DNA of 11,897 nt from an uncultured Saprospiraceae bacterium (GTDB lineage Bacteria > Bacteroidota > Bacteroidia > Chitinophagales > Saprospiraceae), in assembly GCA_938044055.1 (NCBI GenBank), contig CALIQO010000256.1, positions 1 through 11,897 on the forward strand, given 5' to 3'. Positions 2,691-10,310 of this stretch are shown here, piece by piece. Both the position numbers and the translations under genes were made by a program. Position 1 is the first letter of the stretch; each line of letters starts with the position of its first letter. The notes beneath the pieces were generated by a model. The model had not been told where the DNA came from. It worked only from the letters and a program-made list of their open reading frames with translations, and made no database searches.

Positions 2691-3020
2691 TCAATCCCCC
2701 ACCGGAGCCAGCTTTACCTTGATTCCATCAAGTTCCTTAGAGATTCTTATCTGACAACTCAGTCTAGAATTATCTTCCACGAAGAAGGCTTGATCCAGCA
2801 TGTCTTCTTCATCTTCTGAAGGCTCACTGAGTTCGTGATCAGTTAGTACATAACAATGGCAGGATGCGCATAAAGCCATACCGCCGCACGTCCCTTCTAC
2901 AGGAAGTTCATAAGAGCGACACACTTCCATCAGGTTCATGGCCATATCGGTAGGAGCCTCTAATTCGTGGTTTTCTCCCTCTCGATCTACAACCGTAAGG
3001 GTTATTATATCATCATCCAT
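2691..3020 (-). CDS. 2Fe-2S ferredoxin, adrenodoxin type
   Basis: Small soluble electron carrier with one [2Fe-2S] cluster. The ligand pattern C-x5-C-x2-C (Cys45, Cys51, Cys54 in EGTCGGMALCASC) with Cys89 in SRLSCQI is the adrenodoxin/ISC-type signature, not the plant-type CX4CX2C. At 109 residues and strongly acidic (an SEPSEDEED stretch around 66-73 and EEAPTD-like acidic patches) it fits a full-length ferredoxin. It is the last gene of the sulfur operon, six bases after the stop of the ferredoxin-NADP reductase gene, which strongly suggests that the two proteins are partners. Inferred job: passing electrons from the reductase to sulfite reductase (8283-6157). Service to other enzymes cannot be excluded. 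Confidence 0.93.
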   Translation of the reverse strand: MDDDIITLTVVDREGENHELEAPTDMAMNLMEVCRSYELPVEGTCGGMALCASCHCYVLTDHELSEPSEDEEDMLDQAFFVEDNSRLSCQIRISKELDGIKVKLAPVGD

Positions 3021-3026
3021 TCTTCT

Positions 3027-4037
3027 CTATGATTCGAATCCATTTACTCCAGCAACAGTCGTATACTTAAAGCTTAACTTCTGATCTGGATTTATGTACT
3101 TAAAGGCAGATTGTACCATAAGAGTTCCCTCATGGAATCCACAGAGGATTAATTTTAGTTTTCCTGGATAGGTATTGATGTCACCGATGGCATAGATTCC
3201 CGGTACTCCAGTACTGTAATCTCGCGTATCTACTTCTATGGCATTCTTATCTATGGTAAGTCCCCAGTCTGCAATAGGGCCGAGTTTCGGAGAAAGTCCG
3301 AACAATGGAATAAAATTATCTACCGATTGTGTTATCTCTCCGTGTGCTTTCGTTTTAACCACAACTTCCTTGAGTACGCCATTGCCATTCAGACCTATGG
3401 CTTGAGCTTCAGTGATGAGATTTACTTTCTTATCCTTAGCAAGATCCATCACTTTCTCTACACTGTCTAGTGCACCTCGGAACGAAGTTCTCCTGTGTAT
3501 GAGTGTTACCTCATCGGCTATGTCACTTAAAAATATTGTCCAGTCGAGCGCAGAATCTCCACCACCGGCAATCAATAATTTTTTTCCTTTATAGACTTCT
3601 GGATCACGGATGATATAGTCTACCCCTTTGTCTTCATACTTTTCAATTCCTTCTATAGGAGGTTTACGCGGTTCGAAACAACCCAGTCCTCCTGCTATGC
3701 AGATTACAGGCGCTTCTATCTGTGTACCACGCGAAGTAGTCAAGCGGTACATTTTATCACCTACTTTTTCTACAGTCTCTGCTCTTTCTCCTAGAGTGAA
3801 TCCTGGCTTGAAAGGTTCGATCTGCTCCATGAGATTATCTACCAGTTCTCCAGCAAGAATGCTGGGATAACCTGGAATATCATAGATTGGTTTCTTAGGA
3901 TAGATCTCACTTAGCTGCCCACCAGGTTGAGGAAGGGCGTCTACCAGATGACAGCGGAGCTTCAGCAATCCAGCCTCGAATACGGTAAATAGACCACATG
4001 GCCCTGCTCCGATTATAAGTATATCTGTCTGTATCAT
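3027..4037 (-). CDS. Ferredoxin/flavodoxin-NADP+ reductase, thioredoxin-reductase-like
   Basis: FAD enzyme that moves electrons between NADPH and ferredoxin. The FAD-binding Rossmann motif IIGAGPCG is at residues 8-15, the NAD(P)-binding motif IAGGGDSALDW at 156-166 followed by HRR (181-183), which fits binding of the NADPH 2'-phosphate, and the second FAD motif GIYAIGDIN at 280-288. The redox CxxC of thioredoxin reductases, expected between the two nucleotide motifs, is absent, and the C-terminal FKYTTVAGVNGF tail is characteristic of the type-2 (YumC/YcgT-like) ferredoxin-NADP reductases. Length 336 is normal for that group. It lies between cysH (45 bases upstream) and the ferredoxin gene (6 bases downstream), so it probably feeds the sulfite reductase through that ferredoxin. 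Confidence 0.92.
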   Translation of the reverse strand: MIQTDILIIGAGPCGLFTVFEAGLLKLRCHLVDALPQPGGQLSEIYPKKPIYDIPGYPSILAGELVDNLMEQIEPFKPGFTLGERAETVEKVGDKMYRLTTSRGTQIEAPVICIAGGLGCFEPRKPPIEGIEKYEDKGVDYIIRDPEVYKGKKLLIAGGGDSALDWTIFLSDIADEVTLIHRRTSFRGALDSVEKVMDLAKDKKVNLITEAQAIGLNGNGVLKEVVVKTKAHGEITQSVDNFIPLFGLSPKLGPIADWGLTIDKNAIEVDTRDYSTGVPGIYAIGDINTYPGKLKLILCGFHEGTLMVQSAFKYINPDQKLSFKYTTVAGVNGFES

Positions 4038-4082: not shown

Positions 4083-4742
4083 CTATTTCTTTTTATAATA
4101 AAAACTGGTGTGCAATCCACATTCCGTTTTTCCTTTAGAAGTCCAGCGTCCAGCACGCTTCTGTCCAGGCCTGGTACAATGGCTACATCCTACAGAATGA
4201 TAGCCTTGAGCTTCAAGTGGATGTGCGGGTAGATTCCACTTTCCTTTGTGGTATAAGAACTCTCCTTCTGGCATATCTATGATAGGATGGAACTTAGCTA
4301 TATCTCCATTTTCTTCCCATACCCTTAGTCGAGATCGATGTGAAGTCTGGAAGTGCAACAATCCGGATATCCAGATTTTATATTTTCCGACTACTGAATC
4401 TAGTGGGGCAATCTTGTTGACTGTACAGCACATATTAGGGTGATCAATCCACCAGCTTTCATCTGTTGTTAATTTATTCTGTATCGGGTCAGGATATACA
4501 TGTTCTACTTTTAGATTGTATTTTTCCGTCAGCTCTTCTTTATAAGCGAGCGTCTCAGGAAAGTGATATGTTGTATCGATAAACTTGATTACTTGCGCCG
4601 GATTTATTTCTTGTACGATGCGGATTAAAAATGCCGACCTCGTTCCGAAAGATGAAGTAAATAAGATGTCTTCTTGTGGAAATTGCTTGTACAATTTTTC
4701 CAGACGTTCTCTGAAGCTGAGTTTAGCATAAGATTTATTCAA
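4083..4742 (-). CDS. cysH: Assimilatory APS reductase (CysH family)
   Basis: Reduces adenylyl sulfate to sulfite and AMP with electrons from thioredoxin or glutaredoxin. The nucleotide-binding SSFGTRSA is at residues 30-37. The cluster motif Cys105-Cys106 plus Cys186-x2-Cys189 (NMCC and GCSHC) marks the 4Fe-4S form that prefers APS over PAPS. ECGLH near the C-terminus carries the catalytic Cys208. The loop GLLHFQTSHR (127-136) departs slightly from the usual GxRRxQ form. The start is unusual: there is no in-frame ATG; a TTG at 4742 is used here, and its first bases overlap the TGA of a seven-codon ATG mini-ORF (4762-4739), as in coupled translation. An ATT at 4757, about seven bases after AAGGAT, is an alternative. 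The frame stays open upstream to 4821. It belongs to the sulfite reductase operon. Confidence 0.93.
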   Translation of the reverse strand: MNKSYAKLSFRERLEKLYKQFPQEDILFTSSFGTRSAFLIRIVQEINPAQVIKFIDTTYHFPETLAYKEELTEKYNLKVEHVYPDPIQNKLTTDESWWIDHPNMCCTVNKIAPLDSVVGKYKIWISGLLHFQTSHRSRLRVWEENGDIAKFHPIIDMPEGEFLYHKGKWNLPAHPLEAQGYHSVGCSHCTRPGQKRAGRWTSKGKTECGLHTSFYYKKK

Positions 4743-4809: not shown

Positions 4810-5400
4810 TTACCCAGTGATCAATGATTTAGTAAGTTCGTTCAATTGCTTAACTTTCGCTTCGAAGTTGCCTTTCATACGATCCCGTAAAATTTCTAAG
4901 TGTGTCAATAAGTCATCCGTCTCTGGTGGCAAGATTGATTCCAGTACTTGTCGGAATCTTTTTGAAAAAGTCGGTGATTTTCCATTGGTAGAAATTGCAA
5001 TTTTCAAGTTTCCTCTGGTTACAATTGAACCCATATAGAAGTCGCACATATCAGGTGTATCGGCTACATTGATAATCTTACCATGGGATTTAGCCCAGCG
5101 ATAAACTTGCTGATTTACAACTGGAAAGTTGGTTGCAGCAACAATCAGATCGTAATCCACAACGTCTGATTCCCTGACTTCTCTGAGGATAACTTGTGTT
5201 TCTTTTTCTCTACCATTGATAATTGCCTGCACGTCTTTTCCGACCCATGTAGCAACGATAGTGACTTGTGCGTCGGGACTGCTCTTAAGTATAAAACGTA
5301 ATTTTTCTTCTCCGACTTCACCTGCACCTACGATTAGCATCTTGACTTTATCTAGTCTGAAAAATACAGGGTAGAGGTTGTTCTGTTTTATGCTCGACAT
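4810..5400 (-). CDS. Precorrin-2 dehydrogenase/sirohydrochlorin ferrochelatase
   Basis: Carries out the last two steps of siroheme synthesis: NAD-dependent oxidation of precorrin-2 to sirohydrochlorin and, in bifunctional members, insertion of iron. It corresponds to the N-terminal domain of CysG and to yeast Met8p. The Rossmann motif MLIVGAGEVGEEK is at residues 21-33, VAATN at 87-91, NVADTPDMCDF at 111-121 with Asp114 in the position of the catalytic aspartate, and ISTNGKSPTFSKRFR at 136-150, a conserved family segment. Length 196 suits the stand-alone form. Its first 13 bases overlap the end of cobA, so translation is probably coupled. The split of CysG into two adjacent genes supplies siroheme for the reductase at the head of the operon. 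Confidence 0.92.
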   Translation of the reverse strand: MSSIKQNNLYPVFFRLDKVKMLIVGAGEVGEEKLRFILKSSPDAQVTIVATWVGKDVQAIINGREKETQVILREVRESDVVDYDLIVAATNFPVVNQQVYRWAKSHGKIINVADTPDMCDFYMGSIVTRGNLKIAISTNGKSPTFSKRFRQVLESILPPETDDLLTHLEILRDRMKGNFEAKVKQLNELTKSLITG

Positions 5401-6152
5401 AAGGCTTTTATTTTATTCTCTGTAAAAGCAGGATGAAGAGATACAACAGATCCGATGACGATAATTCCAGGTGATCCGATTTTAGATTTTCTTACATCGT
5501 CAACTACATTTTCTGCGTCAGTTATCAGTACTTTCTCGTCTTGTCTGCTTCCATTCTGGATGATCATCATCGGTATATTTCCTTTTCCGGAAGTAAGAAG
5601 CAGCTCTGCAATCTGTGGAATTTTTCTTATGCCCATCAGGATGACAAGGGTCGTATCTGTTTCTACAGCTTTATAGATGTCACCGGATAATTTTTTCTCT
5701 GTTGTGGTTCCAGTGATTACCCAGAAACTATCGGCAACACCTCTTCTTGTCAAGGGCACAGATTGCAACAATGGAAGTGAAGTGGCGCTAGATATTCCTG
5801 GTACAACTTCTACTTCTATTCCGACTTCTTGTAGATGCACAAGTTCCTCATGCCCCCTTCCGAATACGAATGGATCACCACCCTTCAGTCGTACTACATT
5901 TTTATATTTGGCGGAAGCTTCAACCAGTAACTTATGTATGCCTTCTTGAGAATATTTATGTTTTCCTGCACGCTTGCCCACATAGATTAAGGCACATGTT
6001 TCTGTAGCTTCTTTCAGCAATTCTTTATTGACCAGCGCATCGTATAGAATGACATCTGCTTTCTGAATGATTTTCAATCCCCGCACAGTTATCAAGTCTA
6101 CAGATCCTGGACCTGCACCTACGAGCCACACTTTTCCTTTTTTCTGATTCAT
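5388..6152 (-). CDS. cobA: Uroporphyrinogen-III C-methyltransferase
   Basis: SAM-dependent enzyme that methylates uroporphyrinogen III at C2 and C7 to give precorrin-2, the branch point to siroheme. Family signatures are clear: VWLVGAGPGSVDLITVRG (8-25) at the N-terminus, VVRLKGGDPFVFGRG (86-100), VVPGISSA (116-123) and the PLTRRG loop (133-138). At 254 residues it is the single-domain form without a fused uroporphyrinogen synthase or dehydrogenase. It starts four bases after the sulfite reductase stop codon and overlaps the dehydrogenase gene by 13 bases, so the three are one tightly packed unit. With no cobalamin genes nearby, the siroheme role is the natural reading. Confidence 0.95.
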   Translation of the reverse strand: MNQKKGKVWLVGAGPGSVDLITVRGLKIIQKADVILYDALVNKELLKEATETCALIYVGKRAGKHKYSQEGIHKLLVEASAKYKNVVRLKGGDPFVFGRGHEELVHLQEVGIEVEVVPGISSATSLPLLQSVPLTRRGVADSFWVITGTTTEKKLSGDIYKAVETDTTLVILMGIRKIPQIAELLLTSGKGNIPMMIIQNGSRQDEKVLITDAENVVDDVRKSKIGSPGIIVIGSVVSLHPAFTENKIKALCRA

Positions 6153-6156
6153 CTTC

Positions 6157-8283
6157 TTATGCTTTGTAGTAACTTTCTATTACAGGTTTGTTAGGTTGAG
6201 CACTCAACGATCTATAGTTGAGAACTGAGTCATAGAATGTTCTGGCTTTCGCCAAATATTCTGTTGCGAATGCCTGACTGGGTTTTTTCTTTTTCATCTC
6301 TAATACTTCTTCCGTGAAAGCGCCATCATAGGTTATCAATCCTTTTTCAATTATGTTTTCTTGAAAATCATTTAAGATTTTAATGTGGGTATTGCACTTA
6401 ATATCTTCACCTAGTAGGACAGCTTTGGCACTAATTACAAAGGCACTGTACGTATGATAGATTGCATCGTTGTAAGCTTTTCTTTCAACCGATTTACTTG
6501 CCCAGTCTAGTTTCTGTTCCGCATCTTTCAGAATGGTTCCTACAACATCTAGAATTACTCCTGCGCATTCTCCGACTCCGATGGCCTGGTTGTATAGGTG
6601 TTCTTGGCCCCAGTCCATAAAATCCTCTTTCTCGATTCCGGTCACGTCAGCCAGTGGTTTTAATACGGCATAGAAATACCGCTTTCCTTGTCTTTTACAA
6701 TAGTGAATATATTCTTCACCCAGATTTCTGTTTTCTTCATAATCCTGAAGTAGTGCATTGACAGCTGTCGGAATTCTTTTCGTAGGCAACTTAATTACTT
6801 TGTCCCCCATATGTCCGAGGCCATCGCTGTCGATACCTCCGCCGACGACTACTTGCATCGCTGGGATGACACCATCGGCATGCTTGATGGAACTTCCGTG
6901 AAAACCTATGCCCGATGCCATGTGTTGTCCACAAGCATTCATGCAACCACTTATCTTGATATCGATCCCTTTCTCCATAAGTAAGGAAGGGTGTTCTTTT
7001 CTCAATCTTTCTTCTAGAGTGACAGCTAATCCTGTACTATTCGTCACGCCTAGATTACAAGTATCAGTTCCGGGGCAAGCTGTTATATCTGCTATGGTAT
7101 CGTAACCATAATCTGCTAGATTGATGGCTTGTAGATCTATGAATAGAGCTTTTAAGTTTTCCGGTTTCACGAAGCGGAGGAGGAGGTTTTGGTTGATGGT
7201 AATCCGTACATCATCGGCAGCGTATTTTTTAATTACAACAGCCAACTTGCGAGCAGTATCAGCATGTATATCTCCGAGTCTTACCTTGACATAAACACCT
7301 CGATAGGCGCTCTGCTTCTGAGTGAATGTATTGGTAAGAACCCATTTGGCGAAAGCAACATCATCAACCTTATCATCTTCTACTGGATATATATCTTCAG
7401 GAATTTCTGGTAATTTATCTTCTACAATTATCGGGATAGATTGCTTTTCAAGAGAAGATAATTCTTCCTGTACCAAGCTCATCCATTTTTCGAGACCCAT
7501 ATCCTTAAGCAAGAATTTCATCCTTGCTTTCTGTCTTTTCTCCCTTTCTCCATATCGATCGAAAACCCTTAAACTTGCTTCAATAAACGGAATCACTTCA
7601 TCCGCTGGAATAAAATCGAATGCTTCTTGCGCGGGAATTGCTAGGGCTCCTAGACCGCCGCCGACTACAAACTTAAATCCACGTACCCCATCTCTTATTT
7701 CTGGAGTAAGGCCGAAGTCACTGAAGTAGGTGTATGCCGTATCCTTGCTACTTGATGAAAAAGCTGGTTTTATTTTTCTGCCCATCTCTTGACAGATGGG
7801 ATTTCTTAAAAAGTAATTGAAGACAGCATCCACATATGGCGTTACATCGAATGCTTCATCTGGGTCAATACCAGCAGCAGGACTTGCGGTTATGTTTCTT
7901 ACTGTATTTCCACAGGCTTCTCTAGCGGTCATTCCTATTTCTGATAACTGTGCCCACACTTCTGGAGAGTCATCCAGCTTGACATAATGAAGCTGGATAT
8001 TCTGTCGTGTCGTCAAGTGAAGATTACCAGTAGCAAAAGCATCTGATATATCAGCTACTCCTGCTAACTGGGATGCAGTGATCTTGCCAGAAGGAATTTT
8101 CAATCGGAACATCTGCACGCCTAACTGTCGCTGACCATAGACTCCTCGGGTGAGTCTGTAGAGTTTGAATTTTTCTTCATCTTCCTGGCCGGTCTTGAAT
8201 CCTTTGATCCGAGATTGAAGTTCGAGTATGTCGATCCGATCTTCTTCCTTGATGTTTCTTTCTGTTAATTGCAAGTCCTGCAT
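6157..8283 (-). CDS. Ferredoxin-type sulfite reductase with C-terminal HEPN domain
   Basis: Six-electron reduction of sulfite to sulfide with siroheme coupled to a 4Fe-4S cluster. Two nitrite/sulfite reductase repeats are visible: residues about 45-270 with LTTRQNIQLH (90-99) and GNTVRN (125-130) for siroheme and substrate contact, and about 310-545 with the cluster/siroheme ligands Cys403-x5-Cys409 (ACPGTDTC) and Cys447-x3-Cys451 (GCMNACGQH). After about residue 575 follows an extra all-helical region (AIYHTYSAFVISAKAVLLG, then NTHIKILNDF) that resembles a HEPN domain; the RNase motif R-x4-6-H of toxin HEPNs is not seen. This domain explains the length of 708 residues against about 550 for plain ferredoxin reductases. 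Nitrite as substrate is possible from the fold, but cysH, siroheme genes and the cysteine-codon leader favour sulfite. First large gene of the operon; ATG at 8283. Confidence 0.92.
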   Translation of the reverse strand: MQDLQLTERNIKEEDRIDILELQSRIKGFKTGQEDEEKFKLYRLTRGVYGQRQLGVQMFRLKIPSGKITASQLAGVADISDAFATGNLHLTTRQNIQLHYVKLDDSPEVWAQLSEIGMTAREACGNTVRNITASPAAGIDPDEAFDVTPYVDAVFNYFLRNPICQEMGRKIKPAFSSSSKDTAYTYFSDFGLTPEIRDGVRGFKFVVGGGLGALAIPAQEAFDFIPADEVIPFIEASLRVFDRYGEREKRQKARMKFLLKDMGLEKWMSLVQEELSSLEKQSIPIIVEDKLPEIPEDIYPVEDDKVDDVAFAKWVLTNTFTQKQSAYRGVYVKVRLGDIHADTARKLAVVIKKYAADDVRITINQNLLLRFVKPENLKALFIDLQAINLADYGYDTIADITACPGTDTCNLGVTNSTGLAVTLEERLRKEHPSLLMEKGIDIKISGCMNACGQHMASGIGFHGSSIKHADGVIPAMQVVVGGGIDSDGLGHMGDKVIKLPTKRIPTAVNALLQDYEENRNLGEEYIHYCKRQGKRYFYAVLKPLADVTGIEKEDFMDWGQEHLYNQAIGVGECAGVILDVVGTILKDAEQKLDWASKSVERKAYNDAIYHTYSAFVISAKAVLLGEDIKCNTHIKILNDFQENIIEKGLITYDGAFTEEVLEMKKKKPSQAFATEYLAKARTFYDSVLNYRSLSAQPNKPVIESYYKA

Positions 8284-8350: not shown

Positions 8351-8391
8351 TGAATAAAAAAGCCTTCTGAAAACGAATTCTCAGAAGGCTT
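8351..8391 (-). terminator. Intrinsic terminator/attenuator 2 before the sulfite reductase gene
   Basis: Read on the minus strand, AAGCCTTCTGA (8391-8381) pairs perfectly with TCAGAAGGCTT (8370-8360), an 11-bp stem with a 10-base loop, followed at once by a T-tract (8361-8356) and ATTCATT. It lies 25 bases after the stop codon of the second Cys-rich leader peptide and 67 bases before the sulfite reductase start, so it can only serve to stop transcription before the operon. A competing pairing exists: GATGGCTT (8447-8440, inside the leader ORF just after the Cys codons) with AAGCCTTC (8391-8384), seven pairs and one T.T mismatch. Confidence 0.9.
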
Positions 8392-8416
8392 CACTATTTA
8401 TAATTATATAACTAGG

Positions 8417-8518
8417 TCAACTTATGAGAACAGCACGATAAGCCATCATACAGCAGCAACAACAGCAAGAAGTGCTTGTCATTGTAGTGTTAATAAATAT
8501 GCTTTTCGCGTTTTTCAT
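8417..8518 (-). CDS. Cysteine leader peptide 2 (six consecutive Cys codons)
   Basis: A 33-codon ORF on the minus strand: MKNAKSIFINTTMTSTS, then six Cys, then MMAYRAVLIS and TGA. The Cys codons are at 8467-8450 (TGC TGT TGT TGC TGC TGT). An inner ATG at 8482 would give a 21-residue form; the outer start is preferred because the reading frame and the MK...KSI opening resemble leader peptide 1. It lies 23 bases after terminator 1, leaving hardly any room for its own promoter, and is followed 25 bases later by terminator 2. By analogy with amino-acid leader peptides (trp, his) and with polycysteine uORFs reported in mycobacteria, ribosome stalling at these codons when charged tRNA-Cys is scarce would let RNA polymerase pass the terminator. 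Expression is inferred, not shown. Confidence 0.85.
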   Translation of the reverse strand: MKNAKSIFINTTMTSTSCCCCCCMMAYRAVLIS

Positions 8519-8540
8519 AAATTGTAACTCAACCTGTTAA

Positions 8541-8578
8541 AATTAAAAAAGGTCTTTCCAGAATGACCGGAAAGACCT
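8541..8578 (-). terminator. Intrinsic terminator/attenuator 1 between the two leader peptides
   Basis: On the minus strand AGGTCTTTCC (8578-8569) pairs with GGAAAGACCT (8559-8550), a perfect 10-bp stem with a 9-base loop, followed directly by TTTTTT (8550-8545; the first T also closes the stem) and AATTTT. It follows leader peptide 1 by 28 bases. In between is an AU-only 8-bp hairpin (8580-8587 with 8593-8600). No convincing antiterminator within the leader 1 ORF was found; TTAGGTCT of the terminator arm could pair with AGATCTAA far upstream (8700-8693). Confidence 0.9.
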
Positions 8579-8606
8579 AATATATTTTATAGAAATATAT
8601 ACGTAT

Positions 8607-8669
8607 TTACCGCGTCGTAGAAGTTCTACAACAACAGCAACACATCATATTTCTTTTTATGCTTTTCAT
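8607..8669 (-). CDS. Cysteine leader peptide 1 (five consecutive Cys codons)
   Basis: A 20-codon ORF on the minus strand encoding MKSIKRNMMCCCCCRTSTTR, stop TAA at 8609-8607. The Cys codons (TGT TGC TGT TGT TGT) are at 8642-8628. Directly after them the RNA has the dyad GTAGAACTTCTAC (8629-8617), which could act as a pause hairpin. The ORF is followed by an intrinsic terminator 28 bases downstream, then by a second unit of the same design. The ten bases GAAAAGCATA at its start recur in leader 2 (8508-8499), evidence that one unit arose from the other. Five cysteines in a row in 20 residues, upstream of a cysteine-sulfur operon, are very unlikely by chance. It is a leader of the attenuation type; alternative starts at the two inner ATGs (8648, 8645) cannot be excluded. 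Confidence 0.85.
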   Translation of the reverse strand: MKSIKRNMMCCCCCRTSTTR

Positions 8670-8753: not shown

Positions 8754-10310
8754 ATGCTTGCCAAAACTTATGCTGCTGCTGTTCATGGTGTCGAGGCAAC
8801 GACAATTACGGTTGAGGTCAATGCCGGTGGCAATGTCCAGACTGGGAAAAACTTCTTTCACCTCGTAGGTCTACCTGATAGTGCTGTGAAGGAAGGCTTT
8901 CAGCGAGTAGAAGCTGCTATTAAGAATATAGGATTTAAGATGTTGCGCCTCAAGCTTGTAATCAATCTTGCTCCAGCCGATATCAGAAAAGAAGGGGCTG
9001 CCTATGACTTGCCGATTGCGCTGGGCATACTTGCAAGCACCGGACAGATCGATAGTGAGAAGATGGAATCCTACATGATGATGGGAGAGCTTGCACTCAA
9101 CGGAGACTTGCGCCCGATTAAGGGGGCGCTACCGATTGCCATACAAGCGAGGAAAGAAAAGTTTAAAGGAATTCTTGTGCCTAAGGAGAATGCAAGGGAA
9201 GCAGCTATTGTCAATGATCTACCTGTATATCCCATCCAGCATCTTACCGAGGCTGTAGAATTTATGAACGGAACACTCGACTTGCAACCCATGCAGTATG
9301 ACACCAGAGATGAATTCGTCGAGACTGGGAATAAGTACAGTGCAGATTTTTCAGATGTTAAAGGACAGGAGAATATAAAGCGTGCTCTTGAGATTTCTGC
9401 AGCTGGGGGACACAACTTGATACTTATAGGACCTCCTGGTGCTGGAAAAACCATGCTTGCCAGAAGATTGCCTACCATTCTTCCACCGCTCAACCTACAC
9501 GAAGCACTTGATACAACGAAGATCCATTCTGTTGCAGGTATGCTCGATTCAGGTTCTTCCTTGGTTACAGAGCGACCTTTTCGATCGCCACACCACACCA
9601 TAAGTGATGTCGCACTTGTAGGCGGCGGCTCTAATCCGAATCCTGGTGAAATATCTCTTGCGCACAATGGAGTCCTCTTCCTAGATGAGTTGCCAGAATT
9701 TAAGCGCTCAGTGTTAGAAGTTTTAAGGCAACCGATGGAAGAAAGAAAGGTTACCATCTCGCGAGCTAGAATCTCCGTGGATTATCCAGCTTCGTTTATG
9801 TTGGTTGCTTCTATGAATCCATGCCCTTGTGGTTTTTACAACCATACTGATAAAGAGTGTGTCTGCGGTCCAGGAATAGTAAAAAAATACCTCAATAAAA
9901 TCTCTGGTCCACTACTCGATAGAATCGATCTCCATGTAGAAGTAACTCCTGTGTCTTATGACGAACTCTCTTCTAGAGAATTTAAATCTGAAAGGAGTGA
10001 AGAAATTGTCAAGCGCGTTATTGTAGCAAGAGAAATCCAGGATGCCAGGTTTAAAGAAGTAAAAGACATCTACAGCAATGCACATATGACCAGTCGGATG
10101 GTCCGGGAGATCTGTGAAATAGATAAGCAAGGTACCATCTTGCTGAAGACAGCAATGGAGCGCCTGCAATTGTCTGCACGTGCCTATGACCGTATTCTTA
10201 AAGTAGCTCGGACAGTGGCTGATCTTGCGGGAAGCGAATCCATTAAAATGGAACATCTGGCTGAAGCAATTAATTATCGGAGTCTTGATAGAGAAGGGTG
10301 GGCAGGATAA
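8754..10310 (+). CDS. comM: YifB/ComM-family AAA+ ATPase (Mg-chelatase-like)
   Basis: Cytoplasmic AAA+ ATPase of the YifB family. Characterised ComM proteins are hexameric helicases that help branch migration when foreign DNA is integrated during natural transformation, though the gene also occurs in bacteria not known to be competent. Residues 1-180 form the N-terminal ChlI-like/Lon-protease-like domain (HLVGLPDSAVKE at 36-47). The ATPase core follows: Walker A GPPGAGKT at 226-233, Walker B GVLFLDELPEF at 306-316, the PFRSPHHT segment at 275-282 and the cysteine set NPCPCG (355-360) with CVC (369-371), a possible metal knuckle. The C-terminal helical lid has SARAYDRILKVARTVADL (474-491). Length 518 is normal and the gene looks intact. 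It is divergent from the sulfur operon leader, with no functional link apparent. Confidence 0.93.
   Translation: MLAKTYAAAVHGVEATTITVEVNAGGNVQTGKNFFHLVGLPDSAVKEGFQRVEAAIKNIGFKMLRLKLVINLAPADIRKEGAAYDLPIALGILASTGQIDSEKMESYMMMGELALNGDLRPIKGALPIAIQARKEKFKGILVPKENAREAAIVNDLPVYPIQHLTEAVEFMNGTLDLQPMQYDTRDEFVETGNKYSADFSDVKGQENIKRALEISAAGGHNLILIGPPGAGKTMLARRLPTILPPLNLHEALDTTKIHSVAGMLDSGSSLVTERPFRSPHHTISDVALVGGGSNPNPGEISLAHNGVLFLDELPEFKRSVLEVLRQPMEERKVTISRARISVDYPASFMLVASMNPCPCGFYNHTDKECVCGPGIVKKYLNKISGPLLDRIDLHVEVTPVSYDELSSREFKSERSEEIVKRVIVAREIQDARFKEVKDIYSNAHMTSRMVREICEIDKQGTILLKTAMERLQLSARAYDRILKVARTVADLAGSESIKMEHLAEAINYRSLDREGWAG

Follow-up and report, generated by a model that had tools for sequence, protein, structure and literature searches.

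Classical ribosome-mediated attenuators are of the type found in E. coli trp and his, in which a short leader ORF carrying consecutive regulating codons and a mutually exclusive antiterminator and intrinsic terminator precede the operon for that amino acid. Attenuation across bacteria was reportedly the subject of work by Lopatovskaya in 2010, and mycobacterial polycysteine uORFs are said, in the title of a 2020 article by Canestrari, to be cysteine-responsive and leaderless. The locus described here lies in a window (the whole stretch of 11,897 nucleotides that was analysed) from an uncultured Saprospiraceae bacterium. It has the same parts as the E. coli attenuators, but differs from them in that two complete units stand in series, that both concern the same amino acid, that this amino acid is cysteine, and that the host belongs to the Bacteroidota.

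Single cysteine leaders have been described in Actinobacteria, and the cys operons of Mycobacterium are presented, in the parts of the article available to us, as having no obvious or conserved terminators (Seliverstov 2005, PMC1262725). The window shares with these polycysteine uORFs the Cys-run leader peptides before cys operons; in contrast to what the available parts of that article describe, it has two intrinsic terminators, antiterminators, and two units (PMC1262725). The nearest described case that we found, as far as the accessible text of that paper goes, is mgtCBR of Salmonella, where two leader ORFs lie in one leader before one operon and respond to different signals, ATP and proline, with stem-loops unlike intrinsic terminators, whereas here Cys runs are present in both leaders together with two intrinsic terminators (PMC3641672). 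The Bacteroid-trp motif (RF01692) is likewise a candidate cis-regulatory RNA of Bacteroidetes, linked by its name to an amino acid operon in the accessible part of its description (PMC2864571); the window gave no Rfam match at gathering score and is set apart from this motif on that ground. In the available main text of a 2010 survey of premature terminators, no word begins with Bacteroid or Flavobacter (PMC2965389). The titles and starts of abstracts among the matches listed yielded neither tandem same-signal leader-peptide attenuators nor cysteine attenuation in Bacteroidota, and an earlier mention may exist. Provisionally, we regard serial classical leader-peptide attenuators for one amino acid as new.

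On the minus strand of the window, leader 1, terminator 1, leader 2, terminator 2 and the sulfite reductase gene follow one another in this order, the leader elements spanning 8669-8359 and the ATG of the gene standing at 8283, 75 nt beyond the end of terminator 2 (Table 1). Leader 1 contains five consecutive Cys codons (8642-8628) and leader 2 contains six (8467-8450), and relatives have Cys-run leaders at the place of leader 1. The two hairpins, which were chosen beforehand, were each better than 200 of 200 shuffles, terminator 1 folding at -18.5 kcal/mol (z -6.5) and terminator 2 at -19.8 kcal/mol (z -5.4). A simple terminator scan of the whole window found a number of candidates not above chance (10 vs 7.6 +- 3.2 in shuffles), and the longest stems in that scan were those of terminators 1 and 2. 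On the basis of the sequence, the ORFs and the comparison of the hairpins with shuffles, the tandem pair that a sequence-only reading had placed before the sulfite reductase gene is real and its coordinates hold; only the stem lengths given there, 10 and 11 bp, were slightly short of those found here (Table 1).

Table 1. Leader elements and operon genes in the window, listed in the direction of transcription
Feature	Position	Strand	Details
Leader ORF 1	8607..8669	(-)	ATG 8669, stop 8607; 20 codons; peptide MKSIKRNMMCCCCCRTSTTR
Predicted antiterminator 1	8565..8616	(-)	8616-8601 pairs with 8578-8565
Predicted intrinsic terminator 1	8550..8578	(-)	12-bp stem, 5-nt loop, T run after
Leader ORF 2	8417..8518	(-)	first in-frame ATG 8518, stop 8417; 33 codons; peptide MKNAKSIFINTTMTSTSCCCCCCMMAYRAVLIS
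Predicted antiterminator 2	8377..8431	(-)	8431-8419 pairs with 8390-8377
Predicted intrinsic terminator 2	8359..8392	(-)	15-bp stem, 4-nt loop, T run after
Sulfite reductase, first operon gene	6157..8283	(-)	Pfam NIR_SIR domains and context
Uroporphyrinogen-III C-methyltransferase (siroheme)	5388..6152	(-)	
CysG N-terminal type protein (siroheme)	4810..5400	(-)	
PAPS/APS reductase	4083..4742	(-)	TTG start as listed
FAD-dependent NAD(P) oxidoreductase, thioredoxin reductase-like kind	3027..4037	(-)	
2Fe-2S ferredoxin	2691..3020	(-)	

Sulfite reductase, siroheme and (P)APS reductase genes serve the established pathway that takes sulfate to sulfide for cysteine synthesis. From the genes found here and knowledge of this pathway, the controlled operon supplies cysteine, the amino acid of the leaders. 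The window combines three attributes expected of an attenuator, namely consecutive Cys codons in a short ORF, a predicted intrinsic terminator between the leader ORF and the structural gene, and an operon for the amino acid concerned. The name sulfite reductase is taken from Pfam domains and context, with scores below the curated NCBIfam cut-offs, and the closest named relatives of this protein are from Saprospiraceae. The upstream neighbour of the leader region is a YifB-type Mg chelatase-like gene, which is divergent and lies at 8754.

The sequence-only reading had interpreted the leaders in terms of attenuation, and this interpretation is strengthened by antiterminators that are predicted in both units and could be masked by a ribosome at the stop codon. 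In the general anatomy of a unit, the 5' strand of the antiterminator lies around the leader stop codon, and its 3' strand is the terminator's own 5' arm. Within the window, the 5' strand of antiterminator 1 straddles the stop of leader 1, and the 3' strand comprises the 5' arm of terminator 1 and the first bases of its loop (12 pairs; fold -16.7 kcal/mol, z -3.4), while the 5' strand of antiterminator 2 reaches the stop of leader 2 and its 3' strand is the 5' arm of terminator 2 (12 pairs; fold -17.8 kcal/mol, z -2.1). The fold of each unit began 12 nt inside the Cys run and ended at the terminator loop; a ribosome stalled in the run would leave this part free. Measured against shuffled spacers, antiterminator energy had a mean z of -2.1 in 31 upstream units, -1.9 in 31 downstream units and -1.7 in 22 single units, and the pairs made with the terminator 5' arm averaged 12-13, compared with about 8 in shuffled spacers. 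Seven of the 84 units had no antiterminator better than the shuffle mean (L027 upstream; L088, L089 and L100 downstream; L059, L097 and L140 single). Nearly all of the bases in the antiterminator 5' strands (98%) fall no later than stop+12, a region that a ribosome positioned on the stop codon could cover.

The pairing is also specific to each unit. When arms were exchanged among 86 units, a test to which genome base composition could contribute (the shuffle and within-locus tests being less affected), a unit's own arm gave a mean of -14.1 kcal/mol and foreign arms -9.6 kcal/mol; none of 2000 permutations did as well, and for 51 of the 86 units the own arm was within the best 10% of arms. In the 31 loci with two units, spacer 1 paired at -15.7 with arm 1 and at -11.5 with arm 2, and spacer 2 at -15.2 with arm 2 and at -11.3 with arm 1. 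The preference of each spacer for its own arm makes the units look like two distinct switches. Judged on duplex energy alone, unit 1 of the window is moderately special, with 9.5% of foreign arms pairing equally well, and unit 2 is unremarkable (48.8%); what supports the window's two antiterminators is their fold against shuffles. Concerted evolution of the two terminators was considered and rejected, the own arm being the best match in only 5 of 31 loci. Terminator arms of the same locus are slightly more alike than foreign arms (8.1 vs 6.9; 0 of 2000 permutations as high), an excess that may come from shared base composition.

We give a probability of roughly 0.85 to the reading that the window carries two complete and independent trp-type attenuators, arranged in series on the same leader transcript and both reading charged tRNA-Cys. 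Its basis, computed here, consists of the anatomy of the units, their conservation, the specific antiterminator pairing, the geometry of masking and a promoter-like motif enriched before leader 1 only; from these we infer termination, stalling, the cysteine response and multiplication. With plentiful cysteine, a ribosome would pass the Cys codons, arrive at the leader stop and cover the antiterminator 5' strand, and the terminator would form. With scarce Cys-tRNA, the ribosome would stall in the Cys run, the free 5' strand would pair with the terminator 5' arm, and RNA polymerase would read on. At the second leader, the same cysteine test would be repeated by a ribosome that has to be newly loaded. 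The operon would be transcribed only when both tests are passed, so the read-through fractions would multiply; if each unit allowed a read-through p, the operon would get about p squared in cysteine-rich cells. Since the second test would come slightly later, brief dips in Cys-tRNA may be filtered.

A comparison with the leaders of orthologous operons, which the sequence-only reading had proposed as a check, revealed Cys runs and terminators in relatives. The sulfite reductase loci came from a Saprospiraceae sample of 150 genomes and from named genomes (80 loci), and removal of 16 duplicates from 130 loci left 114. In the sample, 60 of the 150 genomes matched, 53 of them strongly; 50 of these 53 were used, with G139, G048 and G106 (contig-end cuts) as well as the seven weak matches left out. 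The strict finder, which looks for a run of at least three Cys and a terminator of -12 kcal/mol or better, scored 31 of the 114 loci with two units, 22 with one and five with a leader only. With the relaxed finder, two units were scored in 31 loci, one in 24 and none in 59; no unit appeared in its controls, which were 330 shuffled and 110 opposite-strand upstream regions. With both finders combined, two Cys-leader/terminator units in series are present in 32 of 114 loci, one unit in 24 and none in 58; the total of 32 includes L073, scored two by the strict finder only, and L097, scored two by the relaxed finder only, and the 58 include L065, L103 and L114, which have too little upstream sequence. 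Within the Saprospiraceae sample, 25 of the 50 loci have two units, 12 have one, and 13 have none (two of the 13 with <310 nt upstream).

Two Cys-rich leader ORFs are also present in five further loci that were not scored as two-unit. Three of these (L093, L110, L113) have one scored terminator each, and in the other two (L096, L099) leader 1 has, by eye, only two adjacent Cys and the second hairpin (-8.4) is below the threshold, in our terms just under it. Three of the five are from cultured relatives, L093 being Marinoscillum furvescens DSM 4134, L096 Flexithrix dorotheae DSM 6795 and L110 Pontibacter mucosus. In the wider phylum, an ORF with three Cys in seven residues was found in two of 26 loci outside the family (L160 and L166, among L149 and L152-L176), as ORFs only. 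The pattern that the sequence-only reading had named as speaking against it, hairpins kept where Cys runs are lost, is mostly not seen: among the 58 unit-less loci, eight retain a hairpin within 300 nt that reaches -12 kcal/mol or better. Of these eight, L096 and L099 have Cys leaders, L010 has a broken Cys run, and L127 and L134 have a two-Cys leader. The true exceptions, with a hairpin and the Cys run gone, are L063, L131 and L135, all of them outside the tree clade that holds every two-unit row. The relatives with Cys-leader/terminator units provide comparative evidence for classical attenuation with intrinsic terminators in Bacteroidota and a candidate cysteine sensor for Saprospiraceae.

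The features that are kept among the leaders also bear on whether the peptides might act themselves, as poly-Cys metal or thiol binders, with the terminators being the ordinary ends of small genes. Cys-rich small proteins exist, and no part of the peptides is as constant as the Cys run. However, the flanking residues and the lengths vary, whereas the pairing between the 3' part of the leader and the terminator arm is kept, as is the spacing from stop to terminator (median 27.5 nt in 86 units; 19-35 nt in 70 of them). TGT and TGC codons are mixed in 79 of 86 leaders, which indicates that the amino acid is conserved and not a DNA repeat. The genomic distribution argues against a function of the peptides as well: in a poly-Cys pattern search for leaders at other genes in 61 genomes of the family, 29 new loci (L192-L220) were scanned among the matches listed, and units were found in three (L198, L199 and L220), each before sulfite reductase. 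The units of L220 repeat those of L054, and many of the remaining matches lie in dense runs, like a Gln-repeat case in the window's own genome. We give hardly any credence to peptides that act by themselves.

That genome is a draft of 3.25 Mb in 666 contigs, 74.6% complete, and contains runs of five TGY codons at five places, two of which are the window's leaders. The single runs on C153 and C486 were rejected as leaders because each falls within a long ORF read in a different frame; a cluster of three TGY runs on C640 was rejected because it is antisense to a poly-Gln ORF. A parallel scan for His-run leaders (41 genomes, 30 loci scanned) gave three His-run ORFs, none with a terminator after it; it concerns His only, and leaders for other amino acids are possible.

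The reading of two attenuators in series presupposes a common transcript. Alternatively, unit 1 could be part of a short transcript of its own, from a former gene or as a small RNA, and a separate promoter could serve leader 2, in which case the units would be neighbours and not a series. For the Bacteroidota-type -7 element, the consensus of which we take to be TAnnTTTG, we scored TANNYTTG in the 31 tandem loci, with the inter-unit region defined as terminator 1 to the second Cys run. Upstream of leader 1 the motif was present in 16 of 31 loci, a count that none of 300 shuffles attained (mean 6.0). None of the 31 inter-unit regions contains it; the shuffle mean there is 2.9, yet 16 of 300 shuffles also give zero, so that this absence is weak alone. 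With TAnnTTTG itself the counts are 10 of 31 before leader 1 (mean 4.9) and 0 of 31 between the units (mean 2.5). A looser form picked after seeing the data, TANN[ACT]TTG, raises the counts to 24 (mean 9.6) and 2 (mean 4.9) of 31 loci, the last two loci counting in favour of a promoter between the units. In the window, the stretch before leader 1 contains no exact TANNYTTG. Leader 2 has its first in-frame ATG within 35 nt of terminator 1 in 16 of 30 loci, which argues against separate transcripts; in seven of 30 this gap is at least 67 nt, and should translation really begin at the last in-frame ATG, only nine of 30 gaps are at most 35 nt, both of which would leave room for them. Given that the motif is enriched ahead of leader 1 but not in the inter-unit region, both units are probably on one transcript, which agrees with the sequence-only reading, and we consider separate transcripts highly improbable.

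A further question is whether both attenuators of the series regulate. The tree (FastTree, midpoint root) comprised 111 of the 114 sulfite reductases, with L065, L103 and L114 left out. On this tree the two-unit state requires 11 changes, whereas 300 shuffles of the labels required 27.9 on average and never fewer than 22, and all 32 two-unit rows are inside one 64-row clade. Among the rows branching before the last 36-row clade (midpoint root), 24 of 27 have two units and three have one, with Marinoscillum L093 (scored one) counted apart. Judged from these sequences, the tandem state clusters on the sulfite reductase tree and looks old. Both the clustering and the early-branching rows stand against the proposal that regulation depends on one unit alone, the other being a redundant or decaying copy that drift has left behind. 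So does the finding that the antiterminators of the two units are similar in quality and different in sequence, and so do the leaders themselves, as Cys codons are more numerous downstream than upstream in 24 of 31 pairs, less numerous in four and equal in number in three (medians 8 downstream and 6 upstream), which looks like a division of labour and not like decay.

The proposal of a redundant unit draws on the 24 of 114 loci in which one unit suffices, on several Saprospiraceae that have none, and on the immediate neighbourhood of the window. In its ten-row subclade, the window is the sole two-unit row, six rows having one unit and three none, and the nearest tree row to it (L012) has no unit, so the pair is not strictly kept in its own lineage. 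There, the pair was either kept amid losses in relatives or regained. This isolated place on the tree, together with the seven units that fail the antiterminator test, makes two working attenuators slightly less favoured and a redundant unit slightly more so; we still regard the latter as improbable.

The serial pair is present in half of the sampled family loci (25 of 50), and its occurrence in many relatives suggests a double lock on an expensive pathway. Taken together with the excess of Cys codons downstream, it makes it rather probable, in our judgment, that the two attenuators form a homotypic double gate, a two-step check in which repression would be multiplied, the response would be steeper and brief dips in Cys-tRNA would be ignored. 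In the available part of the literature, the arrangement of RNA switches in tandem has been connected with a more digital control of genes (PMC2864571). The relatives with two, one and no units could be compared directly to learn whether repression is multiplied, and sensitivity raised, when attenuators are stacked.

Several minor observations were made at these loci. The sulfite reductase of the window has a C-terminal extension, residues 585-647 of which match HEPN weakly (PF05168, E 6e-5, 23.6 bits, cut-off 22). Eight loci of the Neolewinella/Lewinella clade have no Cys-leader unit (L029, L048, L075, L079, L081, L086, L091, L095). By eye, L010, L017, L024 and L078 share, ahead of their first leader and a few tens of bases 5' of a TATACTTG-like element, a stretch resembling CCTATCGGATTAGTATTG, and this stretch is possibly an operator of a sulfur regulator. 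In Pedobacter (L127 and L134), a very short ORF with two Cys codons (HCMC) lies before the terminator, about 190-130 nt upstream of sulfite reductase, and is perhaps a minimal form of the same switch. Finally, in three Cytophagales loci, those of Marinoscillum furvescens (L093, 262-378) and two Pontibacter species (L110, 2359-2461; L113, 2339-2441), a SAM riboswitch (RF00162) lies directly 5' of Cys leader 1, so that the riboswitch and the Cys leaders stand in series before sulfite reductase, which would mean one more gate.
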